From a virus, in IMG/VR virus record IMGVR_UViG_3300006329_000001, positions 98,718 through 162,717 of that record: DNA of 64,000 nucleotides; one strand, written 5' to 3'. Below are positions 22,240 to 39,548 of the stretch, in pieces (position 1 is the first letter of the stretch; each line of letters begins with the position of its first letter). The notes below the pieces were generated by a model, which saw only the letters and a list, made by a program, of their open reading frames with translations, was not told the DNA's origin and did not search any database. The position numbers and the translations under genes are program-made.

Positions 22240-22587
22240 CTATTTATTCTCAGGTTCTTTACCAGTTATTTCTTTTGGCAAATCCTCATTTCCAGGATGT
22301 TCTCTTATATAACCAGTATAATTTTTCTTGTTGTGGAAATGGGTGTCCTCCATCCATAAATCATCCCATTGATGTGCATAAACTAATACTTTTACCTGTC
22401 TCTTGCCGTTCATAGTCTCTGGGTCATCCCACTCATGTGTAACGACAGTAATATATTGATCTGATATGAAATCAATATAACCTTCCTCTCCGTCAGGTGT
22501 CTTGACTCTCATACCCTTCTCAAGTGACTTGAGTATGTTTCTTAATTCCAATCTTACAGACTCCGATAGAAAAATAGGTGTACTCAT
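22240..22587 (-). CDS. Hypothetical protein with KOW/SH3-like N-terminus, 115 aa
   Basis: GMRVKTPDGEEGYIDFISDQ near residues 25-44 followed by ITVVTHEW has the look of a small SH3-like barrel. The rest is Trp/His-rich with a charged tail. It overlaps the 2OG gene start by four bases. Function unknown. Confidence 0.6.
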   Translation of the reverse strand: MSTPIFLSESVRLELRNILKSLEKGMRVKTPDGEEGYIDFISDQYITVVTHEWDDPETMNGKRQVKVLVYAHQWDDLWMEDTHFHNKKNYTGYIREHPGNEDLPKEITGKEPENK

Positions 22588-23189
22588 AATTTTAGTAGTG
22601 AAGTTGGATTACCAAAATCACCCTTAAGAAATATATTAAATGCTAGTGAGTATCTCTCTCGCATTATTTGATTAGGTGTAACTAGATGCACTAAAGAACT
22701 GGGGAACATTACCACCATGCCATCCTTAGGTTGTATTGTCCATTGCTTACTATTATATAGATTACCTGTTTTGATACGAGGTGCAACCATACAATAAGAT
22801 TGATCTCTGAATACTAAATCACCACATCTTTCATGTGTTTGTAGATAACAAATACCACTAAACATGCTGTTGCGGTGGGAATGGTCATGTGTTTTCTCTT
22901 GGAATTTATGTCTATTAATCCATGAGCAAGTATATGTTATTTCATGACATCTTTCATCAATTCCTAATACTTTCCATACATATTCTTCCACATGATATTG
23001 TAACCAATCTCTAAATTTAGGTAGTTTATTCAGAACATTCATTTCGAATGTCTGACTACCTTCTCTTGGTGCTTTGTGATACTCCCATCCCTCAATGTCT
23101 CTAATAATATTAGGCATTGATGGGTCTTCTGCAACATATACAGGGGATGAGAACAGAGGTAGTATATCAGTTCTTACTGAAGTTCGCAT
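22584..23189 (-). CDS. 2OG-Fe(II) oxygenase
   Basis: 201 aa. EKTHDHSHRNSMFSGICYLQ near 98-117 carries the first metal-ligand region, MVVMFPSSLVHLVTPNQ near 157-173 the distal His, and RERYSLAFNIF the 2OG-binding Arg. 2OG-FeII_Oxy_5 form. ATG start; overlaps the next oxygenase gene by 23 bases. Confidence 0.85.
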   Translation of the reverse strand: MRTSVRTDILPLFSSPVYVAEDPSMPNIIRDIEGWEYHKAPREGSQTFEMNVLNKLPKFRDWLQYHVEEYVWKVLGIDERCHEITYTCSWINRHKFQEKTHDHSHRNSMFSGICYLQTHERCGDLVFRDQSYCMVAPRIKTGNLYNSKQWTIQPKDGMVVMFPSSLVHLVTPNQIMRERYSLAFNIFLKGDFGNPTSLLKL

Positions 23190-23655
23190 TGATTAGAATC
23201 CTATTCTTGTGTTCACTTGGAGAATGACCAGTATGTTCTATCTTGCCATCAAATAATAATAGTCTGTTCGCTTTCGGTTCTACTTGCCATGTAATTCCTT
23301 CTTCTTTTAGTAGGGTGTTGCCATCACTATCATTAACATAGTATATACACACCCAATGTGGTTCTTTCTCATCAACGTGCCACCCATGTCTATACCCATT
23401 TGGATTAAGTATTGTCATGTCTGCTCTAACCCTCAAGACATTTCGGGCATTTAGGGCAGATTCCATCATTTCTACGAGGTGTGCAAATATGGGGTGTTCC
23501 TCAGCAGTTAACCAATGATTAAAACCAAATGCTTGTAGGTCATCATTACCATAGGTTAAAGTTTGTTGCATAAACCAAGGGAACTCCCATGATGTCATGT
23601 AATCATGTAGTTCTTTCCATTTGTCATGATCGAGGAAGTTATCCTCAATCTTCAT
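23167..23655 (-). CDS. 2OG-Fe(II) oxygenase (HxD form)
   Basis: 162 aa from the ATG at 23655 (MKIEDNFLDHDKWKELHDYM), the usual start of this family; an in-frame ATG ten codons earlier is possible. HGWHVDEKEPHWVCIYYVN has the HxD pair, RLLLFDGKIEHTGHS the distal His, KNRILINANF the Arg. This compact form resembles phage hydroxylases in the same family as 24520-25050. Substrate unknown. Confidence 0.85.
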   Translation of the reverse strand: MKIEDNFLDHDKWKELHDYMTSWEFPWFMQQTLTYGNDDLQAFGFNHWLTAEEHPIFAHLVEMMESALNARNVLRVRADMTILNPNGYRHGWHVDEKEPHWVCIYYVNDSDGNTLLKEEGITWQVEPKANRLLLFDGKIEHTGHSPSEHKNRILINANFSKN

Positions 23656-23821
23656 GCTTGAGATGTAAGGCGGACGCAATTTCATCTATCAGTTCACGTT
23701 GTTCTTCTGGAAGTTTTCCCAACTTATTATACCATTCTTTTTGTAATAAGAAAAGTGCCTTAGTTAATGTTTGTTTATGCTTCTGCTGTAGAGTCAAACA
23801 CTCTACTGCTATTGATGTCAT
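23645..23821 (-). CDS. Hypothetical helical protein, 58 aa
   Basis: Starts MTSIAVECLTLQQKHKQTLT and continues as one long helix (KLPEEQRELIDEIASALHL). Overlaps the oxygenase start by eleven bases. A late-type promoter lies about 26 bases upstream. Function unknown. Confidence 0.6.
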   Translation of the reverse strand: MTSIAVECLTLQQKHKQTLTKALFLLQKEWYNKLGKLPEEQRELIDEIASALHLKHED

Positions 23822-23846: not shown

Positions 23847-23854
23847 TATTTAGA
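23847..23854 (-). promoter_or_regulatory. Late-promoter-like site before the 58-aa gene
   Basis: Minus strand TCTAAATA, one base off the T4 late consensus at the second position, 26 bases before the ATG at 23821 and overlapping the end of the JmjC-like gene. Confidence 0.45.
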
Positions 23855-24548
23855 ATAGTTGATACGATTCCCGATCACTACACTCACACCTCTTAGGACA
23901 CCAGATAGGTACTGATATTGAGAGTCTCTTCTTAGAGGGATATGCTTTGTGTAGTTTCCTTTGTGGCAAGTATAGCACATCTCCCGCTTTAAGCACAGTA
24001 TCCAACTGAATTGTTAGTTCATCCTGACTTGGTACATGTGGGTACTCTTCTGTGCTTGGTATCAATGCACTTGCTCTGTTCTCATACACTACCCATCTAG
24101 TCTCACCATCCATCTGCATAATATAAGTTGGACCTTGATCCCAATGTGGATGAAATGATTTTGCTTGTGGTCTTGTACCTAAGTTCATAAAGATATGACA
24201 GTCAGCACACCCATCAAATCTAGTCTCGAACTCAGTTAATAGTTCTTCTACCTTACTATTACCATGACCATACTGTGATATATTTACTGTCCATCCATCC
24301 TTTGCATACGCAAATAGATCAGTCTTCTTATATACTCCCTTATAAAACCATGGTTCTTCTACTGTCTCTAAATCTATTCTCTTACCATCATCACCTAATA
24401 CTGTAGTGATGTAATTCCATGGGGCATTTAGGGCATTTTCTGCATCCTCCCATGTGACTATCTGACCTACAGCATTATGCCATACTCTAGGTTCATCATT
24501 ATATTTGTAGACCTCAGGGTCAAGAAATTCGTAGTTTAAAATTGACAT
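23850..24548 (-). CDS. JmjC/cupin-type oxygenase, ribosomal-oxygenase-like (copy 1)
   Basis: 232 aa. Residues 133-137 (HPHWD) give the HxD metal pair, followed by QMDGETRWVVYE, then GDVLYLPQRKLHKAYPS with the third metal His near 200. H.D...QL.GE..W...........GD.LY.P....H is the pattern of bacterial YcfD/RoxA and human MINA53/NO66, which hydroxylate ribosomal proteins. It is paralogous to 25034-25738. Substrate inferred only. Confidence 0.78.
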   Translation of the reverse strand: MSILNYEFLDPEVYKYNDEPRVWHNAVGQIVTWEDAENALNAPWNYITTVLGDDGKRIDLETVEEPWFYKGVYKKTDLFAYAKDGWTVNISQYGHGNSKVEELLTEFETRFDGCADCHIFMNLGTRPQAKSFHPHWDQGPTYIMQMDGETRWVVYENRASALIPSTEEYPHVPSQDELTIQLDTVLKAGDVLYLPQRKLHKAYPSKKRLSISVPIWCPKRCECSDRESYQLF

Positions 24549-25050
24549 TCATTGCAATCCTAATACCCTGTGTAGGTGATGATGAAGCATGGATCTCTGA
24601 TCCACCGAATACTATCATCTTACCTTTAAGTGGTGACTCTCTGTGAATAATTTTATGATCCTTATCAAAGAAAAATGTATCACCCTCTGCTTCATTGACA
24701 TAATATAATGCAGTAGTGTGATCGAAATCATAATCTGTATGTGGTGCATGATGTAGCATACCATCAGGATAACATAGTCCTAATCGTACACGATATATGT
24801 CCTCCACTCTTGCATCACATTTCTCTGCAATGCAATATAATGCACTCTCAAATAATCCTGTCTGTTCACTAACAGGTTGATACTCATCTATTAATTGATG
24901 AGAGAATGACTGTGCCTTGATACCATCATGACTGTCTGCAACTTGATATGTAGTATCATCTAACCAATACCATGGAAATGTAGGGTTACGACAAATACTG
25001 TCCAGTTGATTAACTATAGGTTCTGGTAACGTATTAAAAACGGATTTCAT
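24520..25050 (-). CDS. 2OG-Fe(II) oxygenase (HxD form)
   Basis: 176 aa from the ATG at 25050 (MKSVFNTLPEPIVNQLDSIC), preceded by AGGAG at good spacing. LHHAPHTDYDFDHTTALYYVN shows the HxD pair, IVFGGSEIHASSSP the distal His, IRIAMNVNFKL the Arg. Lies between two JmjC-like paralogues and overlaps both. Substrate unknown. Confidence 0.85.
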   Translation of the reverse strand: MKSVFNTLPEPIVNQLDSICRNPTFPWYWLDDTTYQVADSHDGIKAQSFSHQLIDEYQPVSEQTGLFESALYCIAEKCDARVEDIYRVRLGLCYPDGMLHHAPHTDYDFDHTTALYYVNEAEGDTFFFDKDHKIIHRESPLKGKMIVFGGSEIHASSSPTQGIRIAMNVNFKLRIS

Positions 25051-25738
25051 ACTGTCTCCTATCACTTGGTACATCACGAGGATATGCACATGGTATGCTC
25101 ATACTTAATCTCTTACCACCTGGAAATGGTTTATGGTATGTCCTCGCAGGGAAATACATTACATCACCTGCTTCTAGTGTAACGTCAAGATCAACTGTTA
25201 GGTTATGTCCTTCATTATCAGGACTATATGGGTTGTCATCCATCTTAATTAATGCACTACACCTCTCTTTATATACTTGCCAGTGTGTTTCTCCTTCTAA
25301 CTGACATATAAAATTGGGTGGTAAATCCCAGTGTGCACCAAAGGATACACCATTTGGTTTAGCATTACCAAATATATGTGCATCACAATTACAATCATAT
25401 CTGTCCTCTATATTTTCTAATAGATTATCTACTGCTGCATTAAAATGTCCATACTGTTCTATAGTAAATGTTAACCCCTCCTCAATACCTTGGAACAGTT
25501 CTTCCTTAATAGGAAACTTATCTTCATACCATACCTCAAACTTCTCAGTAAGGTCTAGTCTCCTACCATCAGTATTGAGCAAGCAACATCTATAATGCCA
25601 TGGGTTATTCATGCACTTGGTTACATCATCCCATGTACAATACTGTTCGGGATTCTTTAATGCACCTTTCCAGACTCTTGGTCTATCATCTGTCTGGAAT
25701 ATATTTGGATTTAGAAATGGTAAATTAAGAACTTCCAT
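25034..25738 (-). CDS. JmjC/cupin-type oxygenase, ribosomal-oxygenase-like (copy 2)
   Basis: 234 aa from the ATG at 25738 (MEVLNLPFLNPNIFQTDDRP), preceded by AAGGAG. FGAHWDLPPNFICQLEGETH carries HxD and the GE.(R/H)W motif, and GDVMYFPARTYHKPFPGGKR the third metal His. N-terminal FLNPNIFQTDDRPRVWKGAL aligns with FLDPEVYKYNDEPRVWHNAV of copy 1, so the two are paralogues with the single oxygenase between them. Role as for copy 1, unproven. Confidence 0.78.
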   Translation of the reverse strand: MEVLNLPFLNPNIFQTDDRPRVWKGALKNPEQYCTWDDVTKCMNNPWHYRCCLLNTDGRRLDLTEKFEVWYEDKFPIKEELFQGIEEGLTFTIEQYGHFNAAVDNLLENIEDRYDCNCDAHIFGNAKPNGVSFGAHWDLPPNFICQLEGETHWQVYKERCSALIKMDDNPYSPDNEGHNLTVDLDVTLEAGDVMYFPARTYHKPFPGGKRLSMSIPCAYPRDVPSDRRQYEIRF

Positions 25739-26363
25739 AGTCTCCTTCACTTGGGTCTAGTGGGAACCCACTAAAATTTATACTAATAGCAATGCGTTCA
25801 TCTTTGCCATTTGGTTGTGTCTCATGATATAACCATGATGGGAATATAACATAATCATATGATTTTGCTTTATATGTATAATGTTTCTTATCGTTAATAA
25901 AACTAGATTCTAGAGGTGACATACCCCAAATAGTTTCTAGTGGATCACGAAATAATAAATGACCATAGTCAGGGTTCTTCTTAAGATAATATACACATGA
26001 TACATGTGACTTACCTCTACCTGCTGAGTGATTATGCTCTGATGTAGTATCTCCTTCGAAATGCTGATTCGACCACATACTGTCAATATACATGTGGAAG
26101 TCTCTGCGATAATCAAGAGTATTATCCCAGTAATCATGTACTTCATCTAACATAGGCATGGTTAACCAATCAAATGTAGGTGATTGATACAATTCCATTC
26201 CTTGTTTTAGTTCACCAGTTGATTTACCTGATTCACCTGCCCATACACCACGATTAGCAACTGACCATGCTTCATCTAAGAATGATAGTGATGCTGTCAG
26301 TTGTTCATCAGTTGGTACTATCGTTCCCGTCACTACGGGTACCGAGAATAGTTGTTCTATCAT
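25725..26363 (-). CDS. 2OG-Fe(II) oxygenase
   Basis: 212 aa. TSEHNHSAGRGKSHVSCVYYL near 117-137, YDYVIFPSWLYHETQPN near 174-190 and ERIAISINFSGFP near the end: the 2OG-FeII_Oxy_5 signatures with distal His and Arg. Overlaps the next gene upstream by 56 bases. Substrate unknown. Confidence 0.83.
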   Translation of the reverse strand: MIEQLFSVPVVTGTIVPTDEQLTASLSFLDEAWSVANRGVWAGESGKSTGELKQGMELYQSPTFDWLTMPMLDEVHDYWDNTLDYRRDFHMYIDSMWSNQHFEGDTTSEHNHSAGRGKSHVSCVYYLKKNPDYGHLLFRDPLETIWGMSPLESSFINDKKHYTYKAKSYDYVIFPSWLYHETQPNGKDERIAISINFSGFPLDPSEGDYGSS

Positions 26364-27024
26364 GACTTTTAATAATATCAGACATATCTCTTTTGTTCCT
26401 GTTCGGAATCAAATTAAATGAGATACTAATACGATCTTCATCAGTATGGTTCTCTCTCACACCATGAGATACCCATGATGGAAATAGAACTAATCGACCT
26501 TCTTTTGGTGGATAAGACATAGTTGCATGAGTATGTGGTGCTTCTGCCTTACTCAAATCCTCTGCTAATCCGAGAGAATGAACTACATATCCCTCCATAG
26601 GATTCTTATGGAATGTGATACTACCACAATCCCCTTCCTTAGGAGTCTTGACATAAAATGCACCAGACATTATAGAACCTGGATGCACATGTACCTCATT
26701 GTATCCTCCCTTATTATTAATATTAATCCATACGTTAGCAAATTCCAACGTAGTAGCACATGACTCAAATGAATCAAATGCTTTATTACCCCAGTGTTTA
26801 ATTTGTCTGCATAAATTAGCAAACTCATCATCCTCTGGTTCTTGCACTAATTCCTCACCAAAAAAGTCAGGGGACTGATAATTCAGTATTCCCCTGTTAC
26901 TTCTTTCTTTTGTAGGCATACCCTCAGCAATACCATAACATATTTCTTGCATTGCTGCTACATCAATATCTAAATCCAACCACCAAATAGGAGTGGGGAA
27001 AATATAATCAAGATTGAGATCCAT
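26308..27024 (-). CDS. 2OG-Fe(II) oxygenase
   Basis: 238 aa. NEVHVHPGSIMSGAFYVKTP near 119-138, GRLVLFPSWVSHGVREN near 183-199 and DRISISFNLIPN: a clean example of the 2OG-FeII_Oxy_5 form. Its start overlaps the stop of the 185-aa gene by one base. Substrate unknown. Confidence 0.86.
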   Translation of the reverse strand: MDLNLDYIFPTPIWWLDLDIDVAAMQEICYGIAEGMPTKERSNRGILNYQSPDFFGEELVQEPEDDEFANLCRQIKHWGNKAFDSFESCATTLEFANVWININNKGGYNEVHVHPGSIMSGAFYVKTPKEGDCGSITFHKNPMEGYVVHSLGLAEDLSKAEAPHTHATMSYPPKEGRLVLFPSWVSHGVRENHTDEDRISISFNLIPNRNKRDMSDIIKSHDRTTILGTRSDGNDSTN

Positions 27025-27581
27025 TAGGTCAACTTGTTAAGATCGTCTCTTACTTCTCCTTGCCAATCTGATAATTTACTATAGTCTTTCTTCTTAGTTG
27101 CACTATCTGAGTACTTAGAGGAAGTTGCTACCTTGATATTACTTCTCTCCTTCGCCATTTCAGATTCTAACCATGGTTGCTCAGGTTCTTTAAGTACAAA
27201 CTTACGATACATGTTGATAGTCTCAAGACCACCTTCGATCTTAACCAAATCATCCCTCATTTCATTGAGTTCAGTGAAATTGATTCTAGTCTCAGGTCTA
27301 TCGAATGACATGGATGTCATACCTTCTTGCATCTCTTGATACTTAAGGAACATTTCTCTATGCTGATAGATAAGATTCTTCCATAAGTCATCAAGTGTTT
27401 GCACTGCTTCATATGCAGTTTTTACTTCTTCTATTACCTCAGGGGGCAATTCGGGCAATCCTAGGTCTTCTAAATCCTGATTTATATTTTCTGGATCGAG
27501 ATTAGTTGGTGCACCACTGGGGTTAATACCATCTACCTCAGCATCCTCAAGGTTAGTTACCTTTTTTACATCTTCTGACAT
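27024..27581 (-). CDS. Unknown acidic coiled-coil protein, 185 aa
   Basis: An acidic, disordered N-terminus (about 1-60) is followed by helices (KTAYEAVQTLDDLWKNLIYQ near 69-88; LNEMRDDLVKIEGGLETINM near 122) and a Lys/Ser-rich tail. It separates the oxygenase run from the halogenases and overlaps an oxygenase start by one base. The helical form could suit a scaffold or adaptor. No family is recognised. A KLPELPPE segment is encoded by a dispersed GGGCA repeat at 27444. Confidence 0.55.
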   Translation of the reverse strand: MSEDVKKVTNLEDAEVDGINPSGAPTNLDPENINQDLEDLGLPELPPEVIEEVKTAYEAVQTLDDLWKNLIYQHREMFLKYQEMQEGMTSMSFDRPETRINFTELNEMRDDLVKIEGGLETINMYRKFVLKEPEQPWLESEMAKERSNIKVATSSKYSDSATKKKDYSKLSDWQGEVRDDLNKLT

Positions 27582-27582
27582 T

Positions 27583-29163
27583 TTACTCCTTATAAATGGT
27601 CTGGTTTAAAAACTCGTAAGACGAGGGTAAAGTCTCACAATATTCTAGCATGTGTTGGTGCCACTCGTCAATGATCTTCTCTGCGTTGGTGAGTGCTTGC
27701 TCATCCTCCTCAGGAATTATCTCATTGCACATCCTTGATAAAGGTAGTGTCACTTTATTTATAGGATTAAATCCCATACCTGCTGCACAATATCTGGGTC
27801 CATCATTATACTCTATGCTACCAAGATTTGTTAAGAAATCAAAGTTTATGTACTTATGTGACCCATAACGCATGAATAGGTTGTCAGTACCACAGAAATC
27901 ATAGTCCACCACCTCTGATGCTGTCCTCCAGAAATCTGTCTTACGTTCAGAGAAAGCATAGTGAGCAGCAACGAAGTTCTTATGTCCTTCTATCTCATGG
28001 TCTGCTATCTGATTAATCATTTCCTTTTCTACCTTAGGAATGAACCCCCTACGTCCTGATAGTGCATTACATAATCTAATCACTTGTTCATGTGTAACCA
28101 ACAGACCAGTGGACTCTAATGGTTCTACAAAACAATTAGATAAACCAACAGCAATAACATTACCAACAAATGATTTCTTATGCTTACCCATCTTAAATGG
28201 GATAGTTCTATATGATACCTGATCTGCTCTATACTTTCCTCTTGTCTTTACCAAATAATTATGCAACTCTACTTGTGCTTCATCTTCTGATATAAAATTA
28301 CTAGAGTAAACATATCCTAGTCCACCACGTTCCCACAATGGTACATCCCACACCCATCCATTATCTAATGCTGTACAGTTGGTTGTATTAGTAACTTCTT
28401 TCTCAGGATTTTCATGTGGTACTGATATTGATATTGCTTTATCATTTAATAGGCAACCTCCATCATTATAATGGAATGACTCAAAGGGTACATCCATTGC
28501 TTCTCCTAATAGCAATGACTTAAACCCACTGCAATCTACAAATAGATCAGCACTTAATGTCTTACCATTATATACTACACAATCAATATCACCATTCTCT
28601 TTTTTAATTACTCCCGTTACTGTACCCGTAATATGTTTTACTCTCTTACATACATTATTCTTTAACCACTGTCCAAACTTAATAGCATCTATATGATATG
28701 CAGTATCAACCCATGGTTTCCAATAGGTAGTATCATATGTGAGTTTATTATATTTGGTGAAGTGTGCTACTGGATTAAATGTAGTAGCAAATGTATCGTT
28801 AGTATATTTTCCTGGTTTAGTTGCATTAAGTACGAACCATGCCATCCATGGAACTTTACTTTCCATCTCATCTGGTGATCCAAAGGGATATAACCAACTC
28901 TCTCCTTTCTTCCAAAAGTCATTAAAACTAATAGCAGTTTTATAGGTTGCACCTATATCTTTCATCCAATCAGAATCTTTGAGTCCTAATAATGATATAA
29001 ATCTACGAATCTGTTGTAGTGATGACTCACCCACACCTATAACACCCTGATTTGGATCCTCAATTAATGTGACGTTAACATGAGGGCATAGCACATCCAA
29101 TGCTGCAGCAGTCATCCAACCACTACTACCACCACCAACAATAACTATGTCCTTAACTTGCAT
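27583..29163 (-). CDS. Flavin-dependent tryptophan-halogenase-like protein (copy 1)
   Basis: 526 aa, the usual family length. FAD-binding GGGSSGWMTA near residues 10-19, VGESS near 44, the Lys of GATYK at 75 (equivalent to the catalytic Lys of PrnA/RebH), WVWDVP at 270-275 (the WxWxIP family motif) and FVEPLESTG at 345-353. These enzymes use FADH2, O2 and chloride or bromide to halogenate indole-type substrates; the phage substrate is unknown. It needs a flavin reductase, presumably host-encoded. Overlapped by its paralogue by eleven bases. Other members of the family act on pyrrole, phenol or peptide-bound Trp. Confidence 0.85.
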   Translation of the reverse strand: MQVKDIVIVGGGSSGWMTAAALDVLCPHVNVTLIEDPNQGVIGVGESSLQQIRRFISLLGLKDSDWMKDIGATYKTAISFNDFWKKGESWLYPFGSPDEMESKVPWMAWFVLNATKPGKYTNDTFATTFNPVAHFTKYNKLTYDTTYWKPWVDTAYHIDAIKFGQWLKNNVCKRVKHITGTVTGVIKKENGDIDCVVYNGKTLSADLFVDCSGFKSLLLGEAMDVPFESFHYNDGGCLLNDKAISISVPHENPEKEVTNTTNCTALDNGWVWDVPLWERGGLGYVYSSNFISEDEAQVELHNYLVKTRGKYRADQVSYRTIPFKMGKHKKSFVGNVIAVGLSNCFVEPLESTGLLVTHEQVIRLCNALSGRRGFIPKVEKEMINQIADHEIEGHKNFVAAHYAFSERKTDFWRTASEVVDYDFCGTDNLFMRYGSHKYINFDFLTNLGSIEYNDGPRYCAAGMGFNPINKVTLPLSRMCNEIIPEEDEQALTNAEKIIDEWHQHMLEYCETLPSSYEFLNQTIYKE

Positions 29164-30739
29164 AAATCTTTCTTAACGTATAATCGTATGACGATTCCAT
29201 ATCCTTTGTCCAATCATACATGGTCTTCCTCCATTCGTCAAATGTCCTATCTGCTTCATTTAGATAGAACTCATCATAATCCTCAGACAGATTATTCATC
29301 AGACGCTTGAGGTATAGAGTATGGTCACAAATAGGATTAAATCCCATACCTGCTGCTATATATCTGACACCATCATTATGTGCAGGATCACCGATCCACT
29401 CATATGATACATGCTTCTCTGCTGAGTATTTGACAAATAGATTATCTAATCCACCCTCTGTGAAATTATATGATATATCATCTGTTACTGTCTGCCAATA
29501 TTTACCTTCTCTTCTACTGAAAGCATAGTGAGCAGAAATAAATGTCATGAAACCATCTATCTCTAGGTCTGCTACTAGATTCATCATATCTATTTCTGCT
29601 CTATTAGTATATCCTTCTCTACCTGCTAGAGTTGTACATAGTCTAGTGATCTGTTCATGTGTAGTTACTAAACCAGTTGCTTCTAATGGTTCTACAAAAC
29701 AATTAGAGAGACCAATAGCACATACATTCTTTACCCATGACTTCTCATGCTTTCCATTCTTAAATGGAATAGTTCTCATGGATGCTTTGTCTGCTCTCTC
29801 CTTTCCTCTTGTCCTAACCAAATAATCATATAGCTCTTGCTCTGGATTCTCTGCGAAATCCTTTGAGTACACATATCCTACACCAGATCTCTCCCATAAT
29901 GGTACATCCCAGACCCAACCATTATCTATAGCAGTACAGTTAGTGCTATTGGTTATCTCTGTAGATGGGTCTACATGGGGCATGTGACACGCTACAGCAG
30001 TGTCATTTAGCAATGAACCCCCATCATTATGGTGATAACTAATAAATTTAGATCCACATGTCTGTTCTAATAGTAGAGACTTAAATCCTGTACAATCAAT
30101 ATATAAATCTGCTTCGAACTCTCTACCATCATCCGTGTATAATTTCTCAATATAACCACGGGCATCTTGGGCAAATTTAGCAACATTACCCGTATGATAT
30201 TCCAATCCTCTTGGCAAACAATAGTTATCCTTTAACCACTGTCCAAACTTAAGTGCATCAAAATGATATGCACTGTCCACCCATGGGTTCCAATGGGTTT
30301 CATCATCACTTAATTTATTATACTTAGCTAATGCACCTACACTATTAAAACACTCAGCAAATGTACCCCTGTGATATTTCTCAGGTCTAGTTAAATTTAA
30401 TGAGAACCATGACATCCACCCATGTGGTACTTCCTTCAGTACTTTCTCAGCACTACCGAATGGATAATCCCATGTCTCACCTTTCTGATAGAAATCATTA
30501 AATCTTATATTTACCTTATAAGTTGCACCAGTCGCTGCCATCCACTGTTCATCTTTTAAGTCCAATAACTTAAAAAACTCGTTGATCTGTCCGAGAGTAG
30601 ATTCCCCGACACCACTAACAGGGTAGTCGGGACTCTCGATCAACGAGGTTTTAATGTGTGGGCATAATTTTAGGAGTGCTGCAGCAGTCATCCAACCTGC
30701 AGTTCCACCCCCAACAATGAGGACATTACGAATTTTCAT
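29153..30739 (-). CDS. Flavin-dependent tryptophan-halogenase-like protein (copy 2)
   Basis: 528 aa and clearly paralogous to 27583-29163: GGGTAGWMTA near 10-19, GESTL near 46, Lys75 in GATYK, WVWDVP near 270 and FVEPLEATG near 345. All family catalytic residues seem intact, so neither copy is a pseudogene. The pair may act on different substrates or form a heterodimer. Overlaps copy 1 by eleven bases; the upstream gene ends 15 bases away. Confidence 0.85.
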   Translation of the reverse strand: MKIRNVLIVGGGTAGWMTAAALLKLCPHIKTSLIESPDYPVSGVGESTLGQINEFFKLLDLKDEQWMAATGATYKVNIRFNDFYQKGETWDYPFGSAEKVLKEVPHGWMSWFSLNLTRPEKYHRGTFAECFNSVGALAKYNKLSDDETHWNPWVDSAYHFDALKFGQWLKDNYCLPRGLEYHTGNVAKFAQDARGYIEKLYTDDGREFEADLYIDCTGFKSLLLEQTCGSKFISYHHNDGGSLLNDTAVACHMPHVDPSTEITNSTNCTAIDNGWVWDVPLWERSGVGYVYSKDFAENPEQELYDYLVRTRGKERADKASMRTIPFKNGKHEKSWVKNVCAIGLSNCFVEPLEATGLVTTHEQITRLCTTLAGREGYTNRAEIDMMNLVADLEIDGFMTFISAHYAFSRREGKYWQTVTDDISYNFTEGGLDNLFVKYSAEKHVSYEWIGDPAHNDGVRYIAAGMGFNPICDHTLYLKRLMNNLSEDYDEFYLNEADRTFDEWRKTMYDWTKDMESSYDYTLRKIYAS

Positions 30740-30754
30740 AATAAAGGATTAAAT

Positions 30755-31429
30755 TTATCCTACATCAGTAGTTATACGATCATCAGAGTCAGGTGCATGT
30801 GATGTTGGCACATCAGATCCACTTACAACATCTGGATTAGTATCCACTGCTTCTGTGACAGGTGCTTGAGTTACAGGTTGTGCATCAACATGATCTGAAC
30901 CTGTTGCTACATCACCACGATCAGCAAATTCACAAAGTTTAAACTCTCTGCGAACACCAATTTCCATTTCCTCTGGAGTATTCCAAGCGGGCATGTTGTC
31001 ATCATGTGGGAATGGTTGATCTGGTTCTTCTGCTACTCTTTCAGTAACAGTTGCAGCAGGGTCTGCAGGGTCAACTACTTCTATCTCTTTCCATGTGATA
31101 GGACGTGCTTCTGATTTAACTTTCTTAATGTGCTGATAGAACTTACCTTCTTTAGCTTTCTCACCAAAGAGACCTGCATCTATATCTTTCCAGAGCATTC
31201 CTAATTGAGTACCTGGTTCACCATAGGCAATAAGTTTCTCTTGCAATGGATCTGTGTATAAGAAGTCAGGGATCCACTCTCCTAACATCATTCTCCATTC
31301 GATATCTACCTCGTCAGGTGCATCAACCCATTTAAGTGAAGATCCTGGACCTGTGTAGACTTCGAACTCTTCGCCTTTCTCGACGATATCGGTAATGAAA
31401 CCGTCTGATCTAATTAAACAACTTTTCAT
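30755..31429 (-). CDS. Unknown acidic protein near the adhesins, 224 aa
   Basis: Trp-containing N-terminal domain (SDGFITDIVEKGEEFEVYTG; LKWVDAPDEVDIEWRMMLGE; PITWKEIEVV), then a low-complexity Asp/Val/Thr-rich tail from about residue 170. It follows the glycine-rich adhesin gene with one base between them and precedes the halogenases, so it may be a fibre-assembly or adaptor protein. No family is recognised. Confidence 0.55.
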   Translation of the reverse strand: MKSCLIRSDGFITDIVEKGEEFEVYTGPGSSLKWVDAPDEVDIEWRMMLGEWIPDFLYTDPLQEKLIAYGEPGTQLGMLWKDIDAGLFGEKAKEGKFYQHIKKVKSEARPITWKEIEVVDPADPAATVTERVAEEPDQPFPHDDNMPAWNTPEEMEIGVRREFKLCEFADRGDVATGSDHVDAQPVTQAPVTEAVDTNPDVVSGSDVPTSHAPDSDDRITTDVG

Positions 31430-31430
31430 T

Positions 31431-32231
31431 TTAATCGAATTCGTAAACTACTACAATACCCTGACGACCATCGCCACCTCTCTCACCGTTTCTTCCAGAT
31501 GAACCACCTGCACCGTATGCAGCATGTGATCTGTAACGCTGAGCCCATTGCTGTCTCCTGTGGGTAGTAGGAGACGAACCGCCCCAGAAACTTGTACCAC
31601 CATGTCCTAAACCTGGTGGGTTTCTGTGTGCCTGACCTGAACCACCATAGATTCTAACAGAACCTTGATTAGGGTTACCACCCAGTGATCCTTCATGTTG
31701 TTGGTTCCTGTTAGCACCTTGTCCACCACCTGATGAACAATAGTTACCAAAGGATGAAGTACCTCCATTACCACCACGAGACTGGTAATTAGTACCACCA
31801 CCACCGCCACCAACAGAGACGGAAATGGAGTTAATGTTTTCTACATTAACAATACTTTCGGTGTGTGCACCTGCGGATCCAGATTCACCATAACCTGATC
31901 CACCGCCACCACCTGCAGTGCATTTCACCCATATACGCTTAATTCCACTGGGTTTGTTCCATGTGGAATTAGAGTTATATACACTGATTGATTTTGGTCC
32001 ACCACCTGCTTCGATCTGACCCCATGACATTGATGATCCGTTAGTAGTAAGAAACTTACCTGACTGACCCGATACTGATGGGATAACCTGTGATGAAGAA
32101 CCTGATATGGTTCCGTTGATGTTGATGTTGGATACGGTTAGAGTACCATTCACTGTAATAGAACCAGAACTGAGGTCTAAACCACCAGAACCAGAAAGGT
32201 CTCTAATTGCCGATACTTTGAGGGTACTCAT
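31431..32231 (-). CDS. Glycine-rich adhesin-like tail fibre protein (copy 1)
   Basis: 266 aa. The first third has the fibre motif GKFLTTNGSSMSWG; from residue 95 on the protein is Gly-rich (GGGGSGYGESGSAG; VGGGGGGTNYQSRGGNGG), ending GRQGIVVVYEF. This is like the polyglycine-helix adhesins (T4-type gp38 of T2 and S16) that recognise host receptors. It is paralogous to 32264-33067. It has its own late promoter 25 bases upstream. Confidence 0.72.
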   Translation of the reverse strand: MSTLKVSAIRDLSGSGGLDLSSGSITVNGTLTVSNININGTISGSSSQVIPSVSGQSGKFLTTNGSSMSWGQIEAGGGPKSISVYNSNSTWNKPSGIKRIWVKCTAGGGGGSGYGESGSAGAHTESIVNVENINSISVSVGGGGGGTNYQSRGGNGGTSSFGNYCSSGGGQGANRNQQHEGSLGGNPNQGSVRIYGGSGQAHRNPPGLGHGGTSFWGGSSPTTHRRQQWAQRYRSHAAYGAGGSSGRNGERGGDGRQGIVVVYEFD

Positions 32232-32255
32232 TGATTACTCTGTCTCCTTCCTTGT

Positions 32256-32263
32256 TATTTATA
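32256..32263 (-). promoter_or_regulatory. T4-type late promoter
   Basis: Exact TATAAATA on the minus strand, 25 bases before the ATG of the first glycine-rich adhesin gene, in the 32-base gap between the two paralogues. Confidence 0.75.
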
Positions 32264-33067
32264 CTATAAAAATTCATAGACAACTATGATACCTTGGCGA
32301 CCATCGCCACCTCTTTCAGGGTTCTTACCTGATGAACCACCTGCACCGTATGCAGCATGACCCCGATATCTTTGTGCCCACTGTTGTCTTCTATGGGTTG
32401 TTGGTGAAGCACCACCCCAAAAACTACAACCACCATGTCCTAAACCTGGTGGGTTTCTATGTGCTTGAGAAGAACCACCATAGATTCTAACTGAACCTTG
32501 GTTGGGATTACCACCTAATGCACCTTCATGTTGTTGGTTACGGTTTGCACCTTGACCACCACCTGATGAGCAGTAATTACCAAAGGATGAAGTTCCTCCG
32601 TTACCACCACGAGATTGATAATTGGTACCACCACCTCCACCTCCAACTGATACTGAGATAGAGTTAATGTTGGTTACATCAACGAATGATTCGGTGTGTG
32701 CACCTGCTGCACCTGACTCTCCATATCCTGAACCACCTCCTCCACCTGCAGTACACTTAACCCAAATACGTCTGATGCCACTTGGTTTATTCCAAGTAGA
32801 ACTTGAGTTATATACTGATATAGAGTTTGGTGCTCCTCCACCACCTGATACAGCAGACCATGATATGCTTGATCCGTTAGTGTAGAGAAAACTACCTGCT
32901 TGACCACTTTGTGAGGGAATTATATACCCTGAGGATCCACTTATAGTTCCGTTGATAACCAATTTATTGACTGTTAACGAGCCATTAGCAGTGATCGCTC
33001 CACCAGAGAACGACATACCGCCTTGGTTAGATAAATCCTTTACTTGTGCGACATTTAAACGAGTCAT
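32264..33067 (-). CDS. Glycine-rich adhesin-like tail fibre protein (copy 2)
   Basis: 267 aa with the same plan as copy 1 (GSFLYTNGSSISWSA, then the Gly-rich lattice and GRQGIIVVYEF end). Protein identity is very high in the C-terminal two-thirds while the DNA has many synonymous differences, so the duplication is not recent and the sequence is under selection. Differences cluster in the loops. Overlaps the 2OG gene start by four bases. Confidence 0.72.
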   Translation of the reverse strand: MTRLNVAQVKDLSNQGGMSFSGGAITANGSLTVNKLVINGTISGSSGYIIPSQSGQAGSFLYTNGSSISWSAVSGGGGAPNSISVYNSSSTWNKPSGIRRIWVKCTAGGGGGSGYGESGAAGAHTESFVDVTNINSISVSVGGGGGGTNYQSRGGNGGTSSFGNYCSSGGGQGANRNQQHEGALGGNPNQGSVRIYGGSSQAHRNPPGLGHGGCSFWGGASPTTHRRQQWAQRYRGHAAYGAGGSSGKNPERGGDGRQGIIVVYEFL

Positions 33068-33807
33068 TGGTTATGATTTAGCTCCTTCCTTCTATTTAGC
33101 TGAGTAGGACTTATATGTTGTAACGGTTGTACCTTAAAAGCATATTTACCGTTATCTATAATTTCTGGTAAGAAATTCATACTGATAGTTCTTCTACCCT
33201 TCCAAAGATTATATATTGCTTCATATCCATGGAGCATCTCAGCGTTCCAGATGAATAACATACCCTCTTCGGGTGAGGATTGGTGAACTTCCTTTGTATA
33301 TTTATTACCTTGATTTGCTATGCGTGGTTGACGCATCTGTGACAGACTGGGTACACTGTCCTTATATGTACTTCTGTAGAAATCTAATGGTGCATGTAAT
33401 TTTGGATCGAAATCCACAAAGTATGTACCAACTATCATACAGTTATTATGATTATGCTTGATCTGCCAAGTGTGCTCTGTCTGGCACATGTTCATCCAAC
33501 AGTCTGTGATCAGCATATTAGATTCATTTAGATCATACTCTAATAATTCAGTAAAGAAATGAGTAGATGATTCTAAAAGAAAATTCTCAAAATCATTTAA
33601 CCTATCATCAAACCTTAATAAACTACTATTAGAAATATTAAAGTAATGATGTAGATTCTCTTCGGCAACGTTGTCGTTCCACTCATCATGTCCTTTAGGT
33701 ATTTCCTCAAGAACACGATCACATACATCTTTTACGACCTGTTGGTCACCACCATACCTATATTTCCCAATAAACTTGGGAAAAAATTCCTCAATCTCAA
33801 AATCCAT
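33064..33807 (-). CDS. 2OG-Fe(II) oxygenase beside the adhesins
   Basis: 247 aa. QIKHNHNNCMIVGTYFVDFD near 134-153, EGMLFIWNAEMLHGYEAIYN near 196-215 and GRRTISMNFLPEI. The core metal and Arg motifs are recognisable but the HxH is embedded in IKHNHNN, so this is a divergent member. It lies in the fibre operon, directly upstream of the glycine-rich adhesins, which makes a fibre protein a possible substrate. Confidence 0.75.
   Translation of the reverse strand: MDFEIEEFFPKFIGKYRYGGDQQVVKDVCDRVLEEIPKGHDEWNDNVAEENLHHYFNISNSSLLRFDDRLNDFENFLLESSTHFFTELLEYDLNESNMLITDCWMNMCQTEHTWQIKHNHNNCMIVGTYFVDFDPKLHAPLDFYRSTYKDSVPSLSQMRQPRIANQGNKYTKEVHQSSPEEGMLFIWNAEMLHGYEAIYNLWKGRRTISMNFLPEIIDNGKYAFKVQPLQHISPTQLNRRKELNHNQ
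33093..33100 (-). promoter_or_regulatory. Late-promoter-like site
   Basis: Minus strand GCTAAATA, 26 bases before the ATG of adhesin copy 2 and inside the end of the oxygenase gene. CTAAATA variants recur before structural genes here. Confidence 0.55.
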
Positions 33808-33810
33808 AGT

Positions 33811-35070
33811 TTAGAAATTATGTTGATTAGTCGATAAGAGATAATAGTTACCTATCGAATACGCTCCACCATCATTAAATCCGATGTTAGAGAGGTTTTT
33901 AAGGTTATTACGAGAACCTCCGTACATATTTAGATACCCGTCAGCAGAGTAATCCCCGTTGGGTTCTGAATGTGTATTGTCTCTTAACCACCATCTACCA
34001 CCATCTGTAACTCTCCAGTCATGAGTATTGTTACCACCATAATCAGCAGATCTCATGATCCTTCCAGTATAGTTGCCCCCGCCACCAGTCTTGTAGACAT
34101 CACCACAACCGACAAAGAAGTTTGGCCAGTTGCCACCATTAACTATTGTAGCATAGTTTGCTGCTGCTCTCCATGCATACTTTGATCTGCCATAGAACAT
34201 ATCAAGTCCTAAGTCAGCACCAGTATGGTATTGTCCATGATAATTAATGTTTCTACCACTACCATTAACAGGATAGAAATCATATCCACCACCATCTTCA
34301 GTAGCATCAACATACATCTGAAGTGGATTAGGCATGGAATGTGACTGAACCCAATATTGTCCACTGGTCTGTACAGCACCATATGCCACACCAAACTTCC
34401 CAGATTCCATAGCGGACTCTGGACTGGATCCATTTCCGAAATTTAATTCTGAGGCATTAACAACTCTAATACGAGAATGGGAAATATAATATGCTTCGTC
34501 TCCTCTACTCTGGTTAAGATCCGTTCTATGATCCACCTGCACACTTGCAGATGTATGAGGAATCCATCCAGATGAAAATCTTAGATAACACATAGTGCCA
34601 TCATTAGAACCGTTCCATGGTTCATAACTATAGTCATTATCACATCTACACAATAGGGTTGCACCACCTGTTACTGATCTATCATGGTTCCCTACTAATT
34701 CTCTAAATCTATTCTCATTCCACTGCTTTCGCCAGTTAGCAAATCTATTACCATCAATATTAATATGCTGATACTCATTATCCCATGAGTCTACATGGTG
34801 GATAAGACAATCATAAGATAGGTATTGATGTGCAGGGAGTCCACCTACATTAAGTTGATATGTACGTCCTGAACCACCCCAACCATGCCAGTATCCACCA
34901 CCACCACTATATCCTGGCGGTGTAGGACTAACTGACATCGAGGAAGTTTCAGAATAATTCCAGTTACTTATATAATTTCTTACATCATTTCCTTCATCAT
35001 ATACTGTCTCTCTTCGGACTGATCCTCCACCAGCTCCACCAGTTACAATTTTCGCAATTCCAATAGGCAT
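33811..35070 (-). CDS. Fibre protein with fibrinogen-like (FReD) features, 419 aa
   Basis: The segment NPLQMYVDATEDGGGYDFYP near residues 245-264 resembles the YCDM.TDGGGWT signature of fibrinogen-like carbohydrate-binding domains. Later RWWLRDNTHSEPNGDYSADG near 365 resembles the WWY..C....LNG.Y ending. Trp/Gly/Asn-rich throughout. Such domains bind sugars or acetylated groups, so a receptor-binding fibre is likely. It lies between oxygenase and fibre genes. Confidence 0.6.
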   Translation of the reverse strand: MPIGIAKIVTGGAGGGSVRRETVYDEGNDVRNYISNWNYSETSSMSVSPTPPGYSGGGGYWHGWGGSGRTYQLNVGGLPAHQYLSYDCLIHHVDSWDNEYQHINIDGNRFANWRKQWNENRFRELVGNHDRSVTGGATLLCRCDNDYSYEPWNGSNDGTMCYLRFSSGWIPHTSASVQVDHRTDLNQSRGDEAYYISHSRIRVVNASELNFGNGSSPESAMESGKFGVAYGAVQTSGQYWVQSHSMPNPLQMYVDATEDGGGYDFYPVNGSGRNINYHGQYHTGADLGLDMFYGRSKYAWRAAANYATIVNGGNWPNFFVGCGDVYKTGGGGNYTGRIMRSADYGGNNTHDWRVTDGGRWWLRDNTHSEPNGDYSADGYLNMYGGSRNNLKNLSNIGFNDGGAYSIGNYYLLSTNQHNF

Positions 35071-35072
35071 GA

Positions 35073-35930
35073 TTATTCAGTATATTGTACTTGGTTTCCA
35101 AATACGTTCCAACTTTCGCCATCAACGTAGAAGAAGTAGTTTATAACATCCCATCCACTTCCAGAACTAGGTGGTGATGCATACATTGTAGTAGTATTCT
35201 GTCCATTTATATTTACATCATTTACAGTACCAGTACCATTTACCTGTTTTATAATTATCTGTGCAGTATATACGAAACCACCGACATTAGGAACATTGTT
35301 AAAGTTAACTGAGAAGTTACCATTATAACCTGAGGGGTTAGTAGTAATAAAAATTGTTCCTTGACTATGATCTAGAGTAACACTACCACCCTTACCAAAT
35401 CCTATGAAATTTTCTTTTGTTTGTCCAAACTCAAGTGTAGAACCTGGAATTAACCTTAAGTGTTCATTGACACCAATGTTGTTAAAATATCTGTATGCAG
35501 TTAGATCTTCGTCAGGACCAATAATTGTCCATGTTGCACCATTCTCAATAGTAACAGTGTAACCGTTTGCAATAGTAATAGGAGCAGCAGTGAAACCGTT
35601 TGTAAATTCTACACCACCGTTAGCTGTTGGACCAACTGTAAGATTCTCTGATATTGTAGTTCCGTTGGTTCTAATAATAGAATTCTCACCAACTGAGGGA
35701 CCACCACCACCTACGCTATCCCAACCAGGTGAACCAGATACATCTTGTTTCCATATCTGTGCTTCATCTTCTGTAGAGTTATATACTAACGTTCCATAAG
35801 CAGGAGTACCAAGTGCATTAACTGCTGCTTGGTTAAGTTCTGGCAGATTAAGTTGCTCTGTAACTGTTAGAGCAGTAACAATCGCTCTAGTTGCAGCATC
35901 AATCTGGTTTCCAATAATCTTTGTTGACAT
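35073..35930 (-). CDS. Tail fibre-like virion protein, 285 aa
   Basis: Contains phage-fibre style segments (YGTLVYNSTEDEAQIWK near 45-61; NSIIRTNGTTISENLTVG near 83) and beta-rich repeats, with little charge. Placed in the fibre operon. Precise role unknown. Confidence 0.6.
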   Translation of the reverse strand: MSTKIIGNQIDAATRAIVTALTVTEQLNLPELNQAAVNALGTPAYGTLVYNSTEDEAQIWKQDVSGSPGWDSVGGGGPSVGENSIIRTNGTTISENLTVGPTANGGVEFTNGFTAAPITIANGYTVTIENGATWTIIGPDEDLTAYRYFNNIGVNEHLRLIPGSTLEFGQTKENFIGFGKGGSVTLDHSQGTIFITTNPSGYNGNFSVNFNNVPNVGGFVYTAQIIIKQVNGTGTVNDVNINGQNTTTMYASPPSSGSGWDVINYFFYVDGESWNVFGNQVQYTE

Positions 35931-35945
35931 AATCCCCTCGTGATG

Positions 35946-38900
35946 TTATATAACCAGTTCACGAATCTGAATAACGTCACCAGTTGCAGGTGGAGCAGAT
36001 ATACTAAAGTCAACAGCATTACCTGTTACTGTATAGTCCACACCAGGAACTTGAGCGACACCATTTAGAAATACTAAAAGTGAGAAAGCAGTGTGTCCAG
36101 GCGAAATGTTAAACGTCTGTGTTGCACCATTTCCATTATATGTAACACCGTTATTGCTATTTGCAATACCAGTTGCTAAAGAGTATTTATCTGCACAACC
36201 GTATTTACCAGTAACATCTAAGTCACCAGAAATATAAGTGTTACCACCAATCTTCATCCTGTTGGATGCGTCAGGTGACATACCAATACCATAATGAGTT
36301 ACACCACTGTATCTGTTAGATGTAATAGGTGTAGTATCACTCAATCCAATCTTGTACCATACACCAGTATCATACACCCATCCGAGTGATTGACCAGGTG
36401 CCCAGTCAATGTTATAACAAATGTCACCATTGTTAAAAGCTAACCCTGACTGTAGGTCTGGTAGTCCATTAAGTTCTTCTGCTAGGAATGTCTGCTTCAG
36501 AACTGTACCATCAGTGTTAGAGTAAGTGTACTTAAGTGACTGTATCTCATCTGATGATGTGACTTTCTTCTGGAAAGTAACAGGACCAGAGAATACTGAT
36601 TCTAACTGGTTAGACGCACCACCGATTACGGTTAGTTTGTCAGTTAAAACCAATTCAGAGAACGTTTCGATAGTTGTGTCCTCTTCACCCAACACGTTAA
36701 GTTGAGCAATATCTTCGTTAGTGATCTGACCTGTAACTGGGTTAATAACCTGGTTACCAACGAACAGTTCACCATCACTGTTAACACCAGAGTAGTATGC
36801 CACACCTGCTGCTTCCTTAAGTGACTGTGATAGTCTGACCTGTTGTGGTGATAGAACCTCAACCTGTGTAGATGGGAATGCAGTAGAGTAGTTACCTGGA
36901 CCAAATCCAAGATACTCAAACGTGTGACCTGATGCTCTCAGAATTGAGTACCTTCGTAACTCAACCTGTAGCGGAGCAACAGACTGGTCTGGATTTAATT
37001 TCAGTGCTATCTTTCTTTCTTCCTCATCACCTAAACGTGCAGTAACAACTATACTATTCAGTACGTTAGATGTAGTGTTATATCCTAAGTTATTTTCAGT
37101 CTCTAACAGTATAAACTGTGTAGTTTCCTTCGTAATAGATAACTGTTTGTTCTCATTAGGTGTTGGAGTAGCACCATCAGTGGTCTTAACTACACCCAAT
37201 ACTTCATTATCAGCAATAGAAACAGCAGGTGCAGGGTCAGCAACTGGGTTGTCTCTGTCAAATGCAGGGTAGATATCTACAGTCTGTTGTGAGAATGCGA
37301 AGTCATCAAAGTTAGATGTTGCAGGTGATACTGACGCTGATAGTAGAGTCAAATAATATATACCATCCTGTACACCTCGAATAAACTCTTGGAATGTTTC
37401 TACGTCGTAGATGTAGTAAGTTTTGCTATACGAAGGAGAGTTAGTTTCACTAGAGCGAGGCTGAAGTACGAAACCAGTAATGGGCGGTCTAGGGATTGGG
37501 AAAGCGTCCTTATCAAGGATGTATCTAAATCTGTATGTTCTGTCATTTAAGTCACGAGCGTCGGGTACACGACGGATAAAGGTAGTAGGAGTAAATCCTA
37601 GGTTTTGATACAAGTTATTAGCTTGTAGTGTGGTGTAAATGGTATTAGCGGAACTATCTACCTGAATATACCACTGTCCCCTATTAGTATCATACTTAAT
37701 AGGTGATTCATCATCACCTGCTCTAGTACCTGTAACTTCAGGACCAGCAGGGTTGATGTCTGCATAGTGTGTAGTAGGTTCACTAGCACCTGATGCAATC
37801 AATGCAACATATAATCTGTCGGGAGTATTAACGTCATCTCTTCTTGCACCAATAGTATAACCCTGAATCTTAGAGGGTGGTCTTCCTAACTGACTGGTAT
37901 ATCCATAAAGATACAGTCTAGTGGAGTCTGCCTGTGATCTTGTTGATGCAATATCAATAGTAACCCAGTTAATTGAGATCTCATCTACATCACTAAGTGA
38001 TTTAGGTGGTATAACATGAGTTAATTGACCTGCTTTATCTTTTGTAAAAGCAGTTGCTTTAAATCCTTTACTTCTGAGAGAAGTGTTACCAAAGTTTGAG
38101 TTTGAGTTGGTGATAGAGAGGTCACCGCCTGAGTCGGAGAAGAAATGATCACCGAAACCAACAGCGAACACCGAGACGACTTGGATAAACGCATCATTTG
38201 ATGCTTTAATGTGACGATGCCTCCAACTCTTTCTGTATTCGGCAAGTCCATTAATATGAGCACCAGATCCCGCAGCTTGGGGTTCATATGCTCCAGTACT
38301 TTGGTTGTATAGTACGAATGCTCTGTCATCTTTCTGCAGAGAGATACCAGTGAACTGAGCAACAACCATGGACTTAAATCCAGTTGCTTCAGCACCATCT
38401 GCGTGCATACCATTGATACCCCAAACTGATCTTAGAGAACAGTTAAAGACATATGGTGATGCTGAGTCAACTGTGTCAATTTCGACCTTAACCAGAATAT
38501 TGGAACCGATAGCATTACCTGACGGTTCAGTTGACATTTGATAAGTGAATTGGTTACCCTGAGCAGACGTTACCAAGAACGAACCATTATAGAGGAGCTG
38601 ATCCTGCTCAGTAGGACCAGTAACCCCAGATATATTAACAGCGACACCCACGGAGAATCCATGATTCTTCGGATTACCGAGTGCGTCAACTGTGAATGCT
38701 GTGGCGGTTTGTCCATTTCTTATGATTTGTGAGATAGCAAATTCGTCAGATATAGGACCAACAATTCTGTTTTCCTCAACCCTTACCTGTAACTGGTCTT
38801 GTGCGACAACACCTGATGAGTCAGGTATAGTAGCGTATGCTTTAGATATCTTCTGATAGTATAGTTCTAGGTCAGTAATATTAGCAAACTCAAAACACGT

Positions 38901-39540: not shown

Positions 39541-39548
39541 TATTTATC
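39541..39548 (-). promoter_or_regulatory. T4-type late promoter
   Basis: Minus strand GATAAATA, one base off TATAAATA, 23 bases before the 1190-aa gene and overlapping the stop of the upstream gene. Confidence 0.65.

Follow-up and report, generated by a model that had tools for sequence, protein, structure and literature searches.

The tail-fibre-linked gene block

The window, that is, the whole 64,000-nucleotide stretch of DNA that was analyzed, belongs to a T4-like marine cyanophage (an IMG/VR record of 162,717 bp) and is 94% identical to Cyanophage P-RSM6 over 20–44 kb. The genes between 41.7 and 22.6 kb are encoded by one strand (minus), with gaps of ≤32 bp except for one of 164 bp; J1 (23850..24548) and J2 (25034..25738), the genes considered here, belong to this ~20 kb same-strand unit, in which the tail fibres come first and two genes of the tryptophan-halogenase family are included. 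The unit starts with two tail fibre proteins (39544..41730, phrog_693; 35946..39518, phrog_529), a protein (35073..35930) with an S-SZBM1 orthologue (S-SZBM1_51) that is detected in virions, and a Trp/Tyr/Gly-rich virion structural protein (33811..35070, phrog_15727). These are followed by a 2OG-Fe(II) oxygenase (33064..33807, PF13759) upstream of two paralogous glycine-rich tail-fibre tip proteins (tip 2, 32264..33067; tip 1, 31431..32231), by the conserved protein g30755 between fibre tip and halogenase (30755..31429, phrog_1787), and by two flavin-dependent tryptophan-halogenase family proteins (A, 29153..30739, PF04820 E 1e-96; B, 27583..29163, PF04820 E 7e-95). Beyond a small protein with no assigned function that is conserved across the cassette (27024..27581), the unit encodes two 2OG-Fe(II) oxygenases (26308..27024 and 25725..26363; both PF13759, phrog_81), J2, a third oxygenase that is located between J1 and J2 and overlaps both (24520..25089, phrog_274), J1, and two further 2OG-Fe(II) oxygenases (23167..23685, PF13640, phrog_274; 22584..23189, PF13759, phrog_81).

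The third oxygenase matches the Pfam 2OG-FeII_Oxy_3-like profile (E 1.9e-5) slightly below the Pfam cut-off. PHROGs names its family, phrog_274, 'DNA endonuclease V', yet both members in the window (24520–25089 and 23167–23685) are 2OG-Fe(II) oxygenases; the misnaming has propagated to the RefSeq annotation of cyanophages (the P-RSM6, S-WAM1, and syn9 records), and the 'ferrochelatase' label of small cassette genes may be a comparable misannotation. PHROGs also places the 33811–35070 protein in head and packaging, although it is located among fibre genes. A search by sequence found no PDB relative for g30755, so a role as a fibre chaperone stays a guess. Enrichment of the late-promoter motif CTAAATA was considered and rejected (10 sites compared with 16.4 expected); all ten sites are on the coding strand.

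Family, fold, and active site of J1 and J2

J1 (232 aa) and J2 (234 aa from its ATG) share 43% identity. The J2 open reading frame with a GTG start runs to 25750 (25034–25750, minus); its Met5 is the ATG at 25738, exactly the end coordinate given by a first-pass annotation of this DNA. That annotation described a paralogous JmjC pair flanking a third oxygenase, a description that we confirm: all of the motifs that it listed are located, that is, HWD at residue 135 of J1 and 140 of J2, GETRW at 148 of J1 (GETHW at 153 of J2), and GDVLYLPQRKLH at 189 of J1 (GDVMYFPARTYH at 195 of J2), and both proteins match the Pfam profile JmjC_2 (PF08007; E 1.3e-18 and 6.3e-16; 67.2 and 58.5 bits, passing the gathering cut-off of 22 bits) as well as phrog_8014 (E 1.9e-87 and 5.5e-98). 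As judged by sequence, the family assignment is secure, with motif and profile matches far above chance. In a tree of 101 sequences the J1-type and J2-type proteins form two sister clades (support 100/99 and 100/98), and J1 and J2 are, on this phylogenetic evidence, the products of a single old duplication within the P-RSM6-like lineage, several members of which (e.g., S-SZBM1 and S-WAM1) are without J1.

A search of 84,980 genomes of bacteria and archaea yielded only three relatives: two came from metagenome bins and the third from a contig assigned to Nonlabens, so bacterial homologues were sampled with the Pfam profile. The Nonlabens contig (NZ_RMVE01000006.1, 188 kb, Nonlabens xiamenensis assembly) is probably a P-TIM40-like cyanophage contaminant; its JmjC gene matches P-TIM40 over the aligned active-site stretch.

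The AlphaFold2 (AF2) model of J2, built from 41 phage sequences (mean pLDDT 90.7), has its best PDB matches with the ribosomal oxygenases (ROX): NO66 (Z 19.7), R. marinus YcfD (18.8), E. coli YcfD (18.6), and MINA53 (17–19), followed by B. subtilis YxbC (16), JMJD5 (13), and SnoK/GriE (~12). The earlier assignment to the YcfD group, for which a structural comparison had been proposed, therefore holds for the predicted fold, with NO66 and YcfD as the top matches. The model and the alignment together display the double-stranded β-helix and HxD...H iron triad of the Fe(II)/2OG oxygenase superfamily; the triad (H135, D137, and H200 in J1; H140, D142, and H206 in J2) is invariant in 107 of 107 distinct phage sequences. 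J1 and J2 are very probably 2OG-type oxygenases.

The residues expected to hold 2OG are different from those of the cellular enzymes. The C5 carboxylate of 2OG is held by a basic residue located 15 residues after the iron His, that is, R148 in YcfD-RM (PMC5862935), and the same role is filled by K336 in JMJD5 and K214 in FIH (PMC9712658); this strand-IV position is occupied by K or R in E. coli YcfD and in all of the cellular ROX-like proteins sampled (12 of 12). The phage proteins (107/107) have Thr (T150 in J1, T155 in J2); because the motif used in the later sequence scan fixes Thr155, we also counted Thr in the 58 phage sequences collected earlier without selection for Thr, where it occurs in all 58. 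At the start of the last strand (VIII) the motif R-x-S-x-S (R-L-S-I-S in J1; R214-L-S216-M-S218 in J2) is invariant in the same 107 sequences and was not found in the 12 cellular ROX-like proteins sampled; in the J2 model R214 opens this strand. The HIF prolyl hydroxylases bind 2OG with an Arg that replaces the JmjC Lys (PMC9712658), and all 107 phage sequences have the corresponding arrangement, a strand-VIII Arg with R-x-S in place of the strand-IV Lys. The simplest reading of the alignment is that the 2OG anchor has relocated from strand IV to strand VIII, with 2OG probably held by Arg214 and Ser216; for enzymology, this would be a JmjC lineage in which the 2OG-binding basic residue has seemingly shifted between strands. 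In a third, shorter JmjC_2-like protein (152 aa), encoded by the same phage genome outside the window (G000:C1:21272-21370; locus L080:1498-1956), the strand-IV residue is apparently Met, and the last strand apparently contains an Arg.

S218, present in 107/107, corresponds in the alignment to the Ser by which NO66 (S421) and MINA53 (S257) (PMC9994133) and YcfD-RM (S208) (PMC5862942) hold the side chain of the substrate; because of this match, a His, Arg, or Asn side chain is still a plausible site of hydroxylation. The barrel is not followed by further domains: the last strand of the J2 model ends at residue 222 of 238 with no helix beyond, which leaves no room for a helical dimerization domain or a winged-helix domain, and both are absent. 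The phage JmjC proteins are correspondingly short, 238 aa compared with 361–459 aa in the ROX PDB chains, and a phage median of 239 aa compared with 371–471 aa in cellular homologues. MINA, NO66, and YcfD all have dimerization and winged-helix domains, and dimerization is required for their activity (PMC6182338).

These features bear on the target proposed in the first-pass annotation, host ribosomal proteins: J1 and J2 would hydroxylate uL16 or another ribosomal protein of the host and so tune translation during infection. NO66, YcfD, and MINA53 are the nearest relatives by both fold and sequence, and the substrate-side Ser is kept; however, the two domains common to ROX are missing, including the one needed for activity, the 2OG-binding Lys/Arg is substituted, and the genes move with tail fibres and not with translation genes, none of which was found in the neighborhood of J1 and J2. 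We consider a ribosomal target very improbable. The annotation thus stands for the ROX-like fold, to which the invariant triad and the substrate-side Ser lend support, and is not supported for the target.

Conservation and exchange of the cassette

In isolates and IMG/VR contigs the cassette has the order fibre, tips (one to three), g30755, halogenases (one to three), oxygenases, and JmjC, and this order persists down to ~30–36% identity of the JmjC protein. Where the upstream DNA extends for at least 9 kb, a tip gene and a halogenase are both upstream of JmjC in 70 of 74 distinct sequences; as the phages are related to each other, these are not independent observations. Of the four that depart from the pattern, one carries its halogenase downstream instead, and three, from the isolates Sf-CH1b, Syn30, and S-H38, are only distantly related. 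The distant JmjC relatives of Sf-CH1b and Syn30 are flanked by a 'porphyrin biosynthesis' gene on one side and the sliding-clamp region on the other, and that in S-H38 is close to tRNA genes and psbA. As for the isolates, BLAST matches the fibre tip of the window in 19 records, and exactly the same 19 have a cassette-type JmjC. Sf-FR1 has a cassette with more diverged tips, halogenase, and oxygenases and without JmjC; because its tips are similar, JmjC is dispensable for such tips.

The proposal that the halogenases always adjoin tail genes was rejected, since they are located away from tail genes in S-H35, S-MbCM6, and Syn1. The occurrence of halogenases of the same family away from tail genes and of distant JmjC relatives in other settings counts against a tail-linked function, and the conserved gene order could stem from a single late operon that houses all of the genes.

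The strongest evidence for a tail-linked cassette is a natural swap between two S-RIM44 isolates. The genomes NC_047734 and KX349295 are 96–98% identical up to ~87.1 kb (in NC_047734) and 95–98% identical from 112.6 kb. The intervening block of ~25 kb in NC_047734 contains fibre genes, three glycine-rich tips, two halogenases, oxygenases, and JmjC; at this site the fibre genes of KX349295 are different ones (65–70% identical over parts of their length), accompanied by two small genes and by a further gene, the Syn1 equivalent of which is annotated as a 2OG oxygenase; tips, halogenase, and JmjC are all missing from this replacement module. On the right, the breakpoint is directly past the end of the cassette. 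Replacement between near-identical flanks implies that the fibre genes and the enzymes were exchanged as one block. At the same site Sf-CH11 combines a halogenase and oxygenases with a different set of structural genes, and Sf-CH1b has a PE-PGRS-type gene without the cassette. Two distinct tail-fibre modules thus occur among S-RIM44 isolates assigned to a single phage species, which may accordingly vary in host range.

The swap also bears on whether the halogenases and oxygenases, JmjC included, could instead make a halogenated and hydroxylated metabolite, with the linkage to tail genes accidental. A marine viral halogenase of similar kind is described as iodinating diverse substrates in vitro (reference 114 in PMC10452541), the usual annotation of PrnA is pyrrolnitrin-like (PMC2984593, PMC9964418), and SnoK, SnoN, and GriE, JmjC-fold relatives that act on small molecules, match J2 at Z ~12. 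However, J2 is closer to the protein hydroxylases (Z 17–20) than to those enzymes, the block is replaced along with fibre genes, and the genes examined at 22.6–41.7 kb include none that was recognized as a carrier, synthetase, scaffold-forming, or export gene; a small-molecule pathway is therefore unlikely.

Earlier authors proposed DNA repair or 2OG drawdown for cyanophage 2OG oxygenases, and the enzymes of the cassette might likewise target some other host protein or a nucleic acid. Some cyanophage 2OG oxygenases are indeed located between uvsY and uvsW (PMC9146016, PMC3037559; also seen here), but those are different genes, the cassette has fibre genes as its neighbors, and JmjC has a protein-hydroxylase fold; we regard such targets as highly unlikely.

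Fibre tips as the presumed substrate

The tip proteins (31431–33067) match the profiles of PF21722 and the tail family phrog_863. The AF2 model, in which the mean pLDDT is 80.5 and the C-terminal domain scores higher, has its best PDB match with the receptor-binding fibre of cyanophage Pam3 (E 3e-9), followed by the Bxb1 tail tip, and the tips thus have the glycine-rich tip fold. The glycine-rich domain of Pam3 is proposed to recognize the host receptor via residues at the ends of loops (PMC9608196), comparably to gp38 of T2-type phages (PMC12892980). In the tips, His179, His202, His224, and His236 are retained in 89–93% of 45 sequences, with most other polar loop residues variable, and these four His residues are, from their conservation, candidate targets. 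The two tip paralogues have nearly identical C-terminal domains and more divergent N-termini. Orthologous tips are ~81–89% identical where the halogenase and JmjC are only 60–73% identical, which is unusual for a receptor-binding tip.

All four of the genes directly upstream (S-SZBM1_51 to _54) are represented in the virion proteome of S-SZBM1, whereas neither the two tips nor the cassette enzymes were detected (PMC9146016, Table 1), so the location of the tips in the particle is unconfirmed for this group. Each S-SZBM1 tip has 8–9 suitable tryptic peptides, and the published search considered Met oxidation, deamidation, pyro-Glu, and N-terminal acetylation as its only modifications (PMC9146016), that is, it excluded halogenation and, apart from Met oxidation, hydroxylation. 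The missing tips fit with hidden modification, and equally with low copy number or loss in purification.

The cassette might act on a virion protein other than the glycine-rich tips, e.g., the long fibre or the 33811–35070 protein. The latter is encoded within the same unit and is a possible further substrate by composition (Trp 3.3%, Tyr 7.9%, Asn 9.8%, Gly 14.8%), but only some of the cassette loci gave a match to it, in contrast to the near-universal tips; we judge such a target to be quite unlikely.

Because J1 and J2 are encoded amid fibre tips, halogenases, and hydroxylases, the phage is more likely to decorate its own host-binding fibres than the ribosome. The fold, the conserved residues, the gene order, the co-replacement with the tail module, and the fibre-tip nature of the upstream proteins are shown by the analysis, and our preferred explanation starts from them: J1 and J2 would be single-domain JmjC-fold Fe(II)/2-oxoglutarate protein hydroxylases, akin to the ribosomal oxygenases, in a tail-fibre-linked cassette of one to three flavin halogenases and several 2OG oxygenases behind the fibre and tip genes; they would hydroxylate His, Asn, or Arg side chains, probably at C-3, of the glycine-rich tips encoded upstream, the halogenases would modify aromatic residues in the same proteins, and the two modifications together would alter the folding of the tips or their binding to the host. 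The activity, the mode of 2OG binding, the substrate, the residue, and the effect are what we infer, and we give hydroxylation of the virion tips within the cassette an even chance. This explanation is closest to a second suggestion of the first-pass annotation, that the substrates are phage proteins with a loop similar to that of the ribosomal proteins; it is favored by genes that co-locate and recombine with those for the fibre tips. The broader picture, in which a cyanophage workshop hydroxylates and halogenates its own receptor-binding tips post-translationally and is inherited and exchanged with the tip as one host-recognition module, we advance tentatively, at slightly below even confidence.

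Cyanophages are rich in 2OG oxygenases and 'tryptophan halogenases' for which roles in DNA repair, 2OG signaling, and antibiotic protection have been guessed; we found no link of these enzymes to fibre modification in the open-access literature. If they are tied to the tail-fibre tip, many unexplained viral genes would acquire a testable purpose, and, if true, some phages take the chemistry of receptor binding past the 20 amino acids.

Several known systems can be compared with the cassette. The tips of T2-type phages (gp38) and cyanophage Pam3 (gp24) are glycine-rich and receptor-binding, like those of the window, and the available text of the same two papers (PMC9608196, PMC12892980) describes no modification enzymes for them. 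NO66 (RIOX1), MINA53 (RIOX2), and YcfD/RoxA have the JmjC barrel, the HxD...H triad, and the substrate-side Ser on strand VIII in common with the phage proteins; in contrast, the phage proteins (~238 aa) are without dimerization helices and winged helix, have Thr for the strand-IV K/R, have gained the strand-VIII Arg, and are encoded without ribosomal context. The 2OG oxygenases of the HIF prolyl-hydroxylase type resemble J1 and J2 in their Arg for the C5 carboxylate of 2OG and, by alignment, in the R-x-S motif, but the overall fold and sequence of J1 and J2 are closer to ROX. The nearest counterparts are phrog_8014, syn9 gp49, and the 'JmjC' of S-CREM1, which are of the same family and have the same position in the cassette; the window has two JmjC paralogues, whereas the other isolates compared have one in the cassette. 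PHROGs already lists the enzyme family, with no function assigned; the new elements are the altered 2OG site, the near-universal order of the cassette, and its en-bloc exchange with the tail module.
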